This document shows, piece after piece, positions 31,190 through 32,178 of a stretch of 64,000 bases of DNA. The stretch is taken from IMG/VR virus record IMGVR_UViG_3300035670_000030, positions 1 through 64,000 of that record. One strand, written 5' to 3'. Made by a program: the position numbers and the translations under genes. The stretch is from a virus. Under the pieces are notes generated by a model. The model was not told where the DNA came from, made no database searches, and saw nothing but the letters and a program-made list of their open reading frames with translations. How positions within the stretch are numbered: position 1 is the first letter of the stretch; each line of letters starts with the position of its first letter.

Positions 31190-31218
31190 ATATTATCGGA
31201 ATTTTAAGAAAGAGTCAA
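31190..31218 (-). promoter_or_regulatory. Sigma-70-like promoter, near-leaderless type
   Basis: TTGACT (31218-31213), 17 nt, TAATAT (31195-31190), ATG 7 nt after the -10 box. It lies just behind tRNA-Met. Confidence 0.78.
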
Positions 31219-31226
31219 ATAAAAAA

Positions 31227-31299
31227 TAGCAGGAGTGAGATTTGAACTCACGCATGGTAGGTTATGAGCCTACTGACTTAACCTCTTGTCGATCCTGCA
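31227..31299 (-). tRNA. Initiator-type tRNA-Met(CAT)
   Basis: 73 nt, anticodon arm GTAGG-CTCATAA-CCTAC. Initiator features: no Watson-Crick pair at 1-72 (U1-U72), G2-C71 and C3-G70, A11-U24 in the D stem, T-loop TTCAAAT, and G30-C40 and G31-C39 in the anticodon stem. The third pair is A29-U41, not G-C; AU/GC/GC variants are known in some initiator tRNAs (rhizobia, mycoplasmas). I therefore prefer fMet to elongator Met or lysidine-modified Ile. Confidence 0.8.
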
Positions 31300-31308
31300 A
31301 TTAAAATT

Positions 31309-31661
31309 TGGTGTTTTTATCGCACTTTGGACCAGATCAGAGTTGCGCCTCTGCTGGCATTGTCTAACAACCTGTTAGACTCAGAACACCTAACCATTTA
31401 ACAGCGGTTTTAGCCCATCTAGCTTTGGATAACCCAGAACCCACGCTCTTCTTTTTTGACTATCAACTATAGTAGTCTTATTCACTGTGGAACTCTATAT
31501 GTCTAGCCAGAACACGGACACGTATCCGTTATATAGAGAGGTAGAGTTGCATACCTTAATTAAAGGCGATCCCGATTTTAATGGTTGTACATCGCCACAC
31601 CACCATTTATTAGCATCTCTGCTCCTATCGAGCGGTTTGCTAATAAAATTTTTCAAAGAAC
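31309..31661 (-). ncRNA. Structured noncoding RNA, about 350 nt, family not recognised
   Basis: No convincing reading frame, but dense helices and more G+C than the flanks. Minus-strand order: 10-bp perfect stem 31647-31638/31615-31606 capped by GCUC/GAGC; GGCGAU/AUCGCC (31596-31591/31570-31565); 8-bp 31538-31531/31500-31493 with an inner ACGGA hairpin; GACUA/UAGUC (31477-31473/31462-31458). The 3' domain is a three-way junction closed by GGUGUUC/GAAACACC-like pairing (31390-31384/31316-31310) with a 7-bp GUCUAAC hairpin (31380-31362) and a 9-bp CCAG/CAGAG hairpin (31357-31332). A TTGACA-17-TATATA promoter fixes the 5' end near 31661. The 3' end probably comes from processing at tRNA-Met. Confidence 0.72.
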
Positions 31662-31667
31662 TATTTT

Positions 31668-31696
31668 TATATACACTTATTTTATTACTTTGTCAA
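31668..31696 (-). promoter_or_regulatory. Sigma-70 promoter for the structured RNA
   Basis: TTGACA (31696-31691), 17 nt, TATATA (31673-31668). The predicted start is near 31661, a few bases before the first long stem. Confidence 0.75.
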
Positions 31697-31702
31697 CTGT
31701 TT

Positions 31703-31966
31703 TTAAAATAAAATTTCTAATCCAGTTTCTCCGTAATCGGGCATACCTACATCCATAGAATGACTACTAATATATGGTTGAGCTACTTTGCCTTTAATAT
31801 TTACTCTTTCTGAAATAGGATATGTCGCAGAAATAATATGTTTGCCTTTAATAAATTGTTGGCTACTATATCTTGTTCCAGTGACCTCACCTTTTACTTG
31901 AATTTTGTCAAGATGTTCGCAACTACTGGTTAGTAACAATATCGGGATTATCAATATTTTTTTCAT
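31703..31966 (-). CDS. Small lipoprotein
   Basis: 87 residues. KKILIIPILLLTSSCEHLDK gives a signal peptide with lipobox L-T-S-S-C (Cys16). The mature part is beta-rich (IQVKGEVTGTRYSSQQF, VNIKGKVAQPYISSH). It is translated after the small 31923-32087 gene, with 44 nt overlap in another frame. Probably an envelope lipoprotein; role unknown. Confidence 0.72.
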   Translation of the reverse strand: MKKILIIPILLLTSSCEHLDKIQVKGEVTGTRYSSQQFIKGKHIISATYPISERVNIKGKVAQPYISSHSMDVGMPDYGETGLEILF

Positions 31967-32157: not shown

Positions 32158-32178
32158 TATATTATTCTTTGAAATTTA

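Follow-up and report, generated by a model that had tools for sequence, protein, structure and literature searches.

A probably functional, uncatalogued structured RNA with a boxA-like 5' element in uncultured phages

The RNA locus and its promoter

The window, i.e. the whole stretch of 64,000 nucleotides analysed here, is part of a 143,730-bp IMG/VR virus record. Its minus strand carries a structured noncoding RNA of ~357 nt at 31305..31661, delimited by conservation among homologues and by covariation, with a 5' end at 31661-31664 and a predicted 3' end. Upstream lies a gene for an 87-aa lipoprotein-like protein (31703..31966, minus strand), which is syntenic in G004, G015, G016, G044 and G007 and forms the left flank of the RNA cassette described below. 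Downstream, ARAGORN located a tRNA-Met(CAT) on the same strand (31226..31300), with 9 nt between it and the final paired base of the RNA. A preliminary description of this DNA had the RNA run into an initiator-like tRNA-Met; the tRNA-Met is indeed there and, with a mismatched 1-72 pair, is a candidate initiator.

A sigma70-type promoter is predicted from the sequence at 31668..31696 on the minus strand (TTGACA at 31696-31691, a 17-nt spacer and TATATA at 31673-31668), and promoter-like hexamers are found at the equivalent position in the homologues, the weakest being those of L055. TATATA is followed by 6 nt, then by the boxA-like element GTTCTTTGAAA (31651..31661, minus strand) and then by ~350 nt of RNA. 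The promoter had been recognised previously, yet it had been placed 7 nt before the first helices. The first conserved helix actually starts ~20 nt past the -10 box, and the boxA-like element in this gap (31661-31651) had been missed.

The G+C content of the RNA stretch is 41.6% compared with 30.3% for the window, and only 0.6% of the 353-nt segments are equally rich, in agreement with the local rise noticed earlier. The RNA strand folded better than 100 of 100 dinucleotide shuffles (z ~ -3). Because the opposite strand also folded well (z of -4.8), folding energy alone cannot set the strand; this is done by the covariation reported below. No reading frame was found to be kept among the homologues, and a protein-coding function was rejected in view of stops and frame-breaking changes in length across them. 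Together with the homologues and their covariation this upholds the original view of a structured noncoding RNA in place of a gene.

Homologues, covariation and domain layout

Among 40 further records that are DNA-polymerase relatives of the window phage the RNA was present in three, G016, G015 and G004, at 84, 82 and 79% identity, each time followed by tRNA-Met. A scan with the motif AAGGTATGCAACTCTACC and an independent scan with a 3' motif agreed in the additional phage contigs that they returned. In total there are ten distinct versions, i.e. those of the window, L056, L061, L064, L059, L057, L058, L060, L066 and L055, the last being very divergent; all are on metagenomic contigs. They span 324-602 nt, most being 324-417 nt and L055 602 nt long. 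The polymerase of the L059-type phages is only 44% identical to that of the window phage, and no homologue of the latter was detectable in the records of L055, L057, L058, L060 and L066, some of which are fragments. Scattered homologous genes around the RNA are common to different groups, which suggests that the carriers branch from a single broad group of phages. The comparison of neighbourhoods yielded neither an interaction partner nor a neighbouring protein that all four phage groups have in common.

BLASTN of 31200-31720 against 50,697 isolate phage genomes showed no homologue among the matches listed, which were only those to tRNA-Met and a 44-nt A+T-rich match in Flavobacterium phages (L005:2501-2545, MN812206.1); the latter is 84% identical over promoter and boxA and lies in the short spacer that separates the terminase gene from the portal gene. 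We rejected this match as a homologue and regard it as probably an A+T-rich coincidence, though the boxA there could be real. The motif search likewise found no copy of the RNA in isolate phages. In the genomes of ~85,000 bacterial and archaeal species the 3' motif matched twice, both times by chance, so the RNA looks phage-specific. Further motif matches (L070 and L072-L079) were dismissed as chance since they lie mostly in coding sequence or are clearly unrelated.

Only the four close relatives went into the two covariance models, R1, which covers the 3' three-way junction, and R2, which covers the helices H1, H2 and H4. R1 recovered L059 (8e-22), L055 (1e-10) and L057 (2e-7); scores for L058, L060 and L066 were weak (5e-4 to 4e-3), probably because the arm H8 is longer there. 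R2 recovered L058 (7e-18), L060 and L057 (both near 2e-13), L066 (2e-12), L055 (7e-8) and L059 (8e-7). The chance-match controls were missed by both models, save for a borderline R2 score of L070 (E=0.011), which arises because L070 contains the search motif. In the resulting alignments 96% (R1) and 95% (R2) of the cells were paired, and two-sided changes affected 10 of 22 pairs in R1 and 15 of 24 in R2. Fitting the alignments to the models somewhat favours the structure, and ten sequences are a modest number. The covariation score was 0.43 for R1 against a shuffled mean of 0.13 and 0.40 for R2 against 0.16, values that were reached by none of 500 shuffles. When partners were slid by 1-3 columns pairing fell to 20-50%, and no slid register attained the covariation. 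It is these shuffle and slide tests that serve as proof, because a helix table compiled by eye has 100% pairing by construction. G-U cells exceeded A-C cells by 27 to 3, which identifies the minus strand as the RNA strand.

The 3' core is common to all ten versions. It includes the hairpin H1 (31540..31555, minus strand like all following elements; GGTA-UGCAACUC-UACC), which is identical in all homologues and thus offers no covariation test. The branched stem H2 (31493..31538) comprises an outer stem (31531-31538/31493-31500) and two inner arms (31525-31529/31514-31518 and 31509-31511/31502-31504); the outer stem and the first inner arm show two-sided changes in 9 of 13 pairs and are 97-100% paired. 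A single-stranded segment, UUCCACAGUGAAUAA (31478..31492), is conserved in nearly all versions including L055, and is followed by the hairpin H4 (31458..31477, GACTA/TAGTC), where all five pairs changed on both sides. The middle domain (31391..31457) is conserved in sequence and contains a small hairpin (31422-31424/31412-31414) and a tentative GGGU/ACYC helix; covariation is limited here and the structure partly solved. On the 3' side there is a three-way junction (31310..31390) formed by a stem (31385-31390/31310-31315), the variable arm H7 (31374-31380/31362-31368), in which every pair has a two-sided change just as in H4, and the arm H8 (31349-31357/31332-31342) with a GCGCAA loop. The 8-bp stem and the three-way junction of the preliminary description thus exist and are backed by covariation.

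The 5' domain is swapped between lineages. In the window it consists of the hairpin P2 and a candidate pseudoknot. P2 (31609..31644, ATTAGCA/TGCTAAT with an apical GCTC/GAGC) is kept, with compensatory change, in close relatives; the 10-bp stem previously described at 31606-31615/31638-31647 exists, and 6-8 bp of it are kept in these relatives. P2 is cleanly missing in L059 and replaced by a different hairpin in the large-phage group. The candidate H-type pseudoknot (31565..31606) would combine ATGGT+TGT/ACA+ACCAT with pairing of the loop GGCGAT to ATCGCC. It is tentative with little covariation, its pairing being seen directly in close relatives and in L059, which has the pseudoknot only. L057, L058, L060 and L066 have a different pair of hairpins, with or without a different pseudoknot; that of L058, L060 and L066 is unrelated but similar in layout. 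L055 carries ~320 nt of other structure. Support for both P2 and the pseudoknot is weaker than for the helices of the 3' core.

Taken together, the earlier observation is confirmed and stronger than could be known from one sequence, while its interpretation is partly supported. The recurrence of the RNA in different groups of uncultured phages, its conserved complex fold and its own promoter and boxA signal indicate that it is probably a real working RNA. We conclude that the minus strand from 31661 to 31305 probably encodes an uncatalogued structured phage RNA.

The cassette and its boxA-like element

G007, whose polymerase is 84% identical, has the same flanking lipoprotein gene and tRNA-Met, but ~25 nt apart instead of ~400. 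Promoter, boxA and RNA are all missing, i.e. the whole ~390-bp cassette. The RNA is thus separable and dispensable, and the tRNA can do without it. This bears on the idea that the RNA is a leader which regulates in cis how the downstream tRNA(s) are expressed. Such a leader would be consistent with the co-directional tRNA-Met, located at a distance of 9 nt in four phages with no clear terminator in between. Yet the adjacency to a tRNA, correctly noted for the window, is not general. It is interrupted by a second structured RNA before a tRNA-Asn in L057, L058, L060 and L066, while in L059 and L055 no tRNA directly follows. Since what follows the RNA varies from group to group, and G007 has an otherwise matching site but no RNA, we regard a role as cis leader as unlikely.

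The second structured RNA, of ~185 nt (L057:5574-5757, plus strand), also occurs in L058, L060, L066, L062, L068, L069 and L071. In phages of 195-211 kb it is situated between the RNA described here and tRNA-Asn and displays apparent compensatory changes (CTGT/ACAG to CTGG/CCAG). It had no match in Rfam and is absent from G000 and from isolate phages. A third RNA of ~250 nt, probably noncoding and with a promoter-like site of its own (L102:2821-3070, plus strand; L060:1204-1369; L122:11136-11296), had no Rfam match at E<=10; its identity among phages that are distant within the group is 73-79%.

The clean presence or absence between identical flanks might also suggest a selfish or mobile intron-like cassette of no benefit to the phage, the more so as these phages have group I introns close to or within their tmRNA. 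On the other hand, a promoter and a boxA come with the RNA, no gene is interrupted by it, the intron models did not match, and its position is syntenic in two phage groups, which renders this origin highly improbable. As to the introns themselves, a tmRNA match in G015 (L053:4634-5279, plus strand) directly abuts or overlaps a group I intron, which may lie in the 3' end of the tmRNA. In G004, L050:1311-1544 (minus strand, near 130730) is a group I intron (Rfam E=1e-17) whose start lies at most a few dozen nucleotides from a promoter plus boxA (GTTCTTTAAAA).

In rRNA operons boxA and the Nus factors form an antitermination system by which RNA polymerase withstands Rho while making untranslated RNA. 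The boxA-like element reads GTTCTTT[G/A]AAA across versions (GATCTTTGAAA in L055) and is located just 3' of the promoter-like site in 10 of 10 distinct homologues. Compared with the consensus GYTCTTTAANA (PMC5725501) the window version agrees at 10 of 11 positions, L059 at 11, the others at 10 or 11 and L055 at 9. The boxA survey in PMC5725501 left noncoding RNAs out of consideration. In the 64-kb window only two boxA-like strings are found behind a promoter, namely that of this RNA and that of the phage tmRNA (32129-32636, plus strand), which has a TTGACA promoter-like site and the boxA-like ATTCTTTGAAA at 32164 just before its 5' end. A promoter plus boxA also precedes the tmRNA in G016, G007, G041, G042 and G043, but not in G044. 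The boxA-like element common to tmRNA and this RNA suggests that the phages employ the rRNA antitermination machinery for stable RNAs. By analogy with rRNA, the element would let RNA polymerase resist Rho on untranslated phage RNA.

Since every version has the boxA-like element at its 5' end, the transcript might alternatively act mainly as a decoy that titrates NusB/S10 and so shuts down host rRNA synthesis. A decoy could do without the many covarying helices of a conserved 3' core, and before the tmRNA, where the same boxA is found, antitermination is the simpler explanation. We therefore consider a decoy very doubtful.

We think it quite likely that the locus encodes a discrete, independently transcribed and trans-acting structured RNA of a broad large-phage group, a new RNA class that uses rRNA-like antitermination. 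RNA polymerase would start at the promoter at 31696-31668, and boxA within the first nucleotides of the transcript may recruit the antitermination complex of host NusB and NusE (S10). The long untranslated transcript could thereby escape Rho as rRNA does, and fold so that a 5' domain typical of the lineage precedes the conserved 3' core. In the window phage and its group, RNase P cleavage at the downstream tRNA-Met would probably free the 3' end. During infection the mature and presumably abundant RNA would most likely act on the translation/tRNA system, either as a scaffold or by sequestration, as has been proposed for GOLLD and ROOL. The carriers have many tRNA genes, all 10 tested have a tmRNA, and GOLLD reportedly binds ribosomes in pull-downs (work cited in PMC12286853), which makes such a role the most economical guess, by analogy only. 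Relatives that lack the RNA (G007, G010, G011, G018 and G040) have a tmRNA as well. More tentatively, the RNA may represent a categorically new class of phage noncoding RNA with a biochemical activity of its own as scaffold, cage or catalyst, among several structured RNAs that are expressed with tmRNA and tRNAs, partly by a shared boxA module. If true, this would amount to a phage-encoded programme for making stable RNAs.

Comparison with known RNAs

In Rfam 15 at E<=10 the window RNA matched nothing but the tRNA and, on the other strand, one meaningless weak entry, so that the search for known families proposed in the preliminary description turned up none. RNase P, 6S, OLE, group I/II introns, tmRNA and riboswitches gave no overlapping match at or above the gathering cut-off in the window or the homologues; an RNase P-like RNA was rejected since no model matched. 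No described RNA class matching this RNA was found in the literature searched (open-licence papers).

The preliminary description had inferred a new or distant member of the class of GOLLD and ROOL. A new structured RNA with its own promoter in tRNA-rich phages was borne out, kinship with these families was not. A distant, sequence-diverged GOLLD or ROOL forming the same kind of RNA nanocage would be expected to be phage-borne, located among tRNA genes and elaborately branched, as is the case here. It would also share the plan of a conserved 3' and a less conserved 5' region known for GOLLD (PMC12286853). However, the models of GOLLD (RF02032) and ROOL (RF03087) did not match at E<=10 in three divergent members. 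In 11 carrier phages neither gave anything above the cut-off; with the GOLLD model control genomes likewise yielded no positive above the cut-off, and the ROOL model was run without a positive control. Moreover, most versions are 324-417 nt long compared with ~660 nt for ROOL and >800 nt for many GOLLD RNAs (PMC12286853). Because family models and size range both failed, we did not file the RNA under GOLLD or ROOL, membership being improbable. It resembles them in niche and layout; judged by sequence, common ancestry is not supported.

Among known systems, the rRNA operon offers the likeness of GTTCTTTGAAA right after a promoter and before a long untranslated structured RNA; the difference is that the element is found here, at the level of sequence, on a phage noncoding RNA and phage tmRNA. 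Phage tmRNA (RF00023) is encoded by the same phages, in many with the same arrangement of promoter and boxA, and in the window lies ~0.5 kb away in divergent orientation. Yet the RNA has neither a tRNA-like domain nor a tag reading frame and is unrelated to tmRNA in sequence and fold. ROOL is similar as a phage or prophage RNA with a large branched fold near tRNA islands, but differs in the covariance model and in length. GOLLD is similarly phage-encoded, close to tRNA genes and elaborately folded, and its plan of conserved 3' and variable 5' regions recurs here as an analogy only, the sequences being different; the present RNA does not match its model, has at most about half its length, possesses a boxA leader and contains no tRNA. 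GOLLD and ROOL are often near phage tRNA genes, whereas for this RNA the carriers are tRNA-rich but direct adjacency is not constant. The function of these large phage RNAs is a long-standing puzzle, to which the present RNA adds a third class from the same niche that is shorter and looks unrelated. With its clear core, natural swaps of the 5' domain, a natural empty site and the boxA leader it provides a compact system for asking what such RNAs do.
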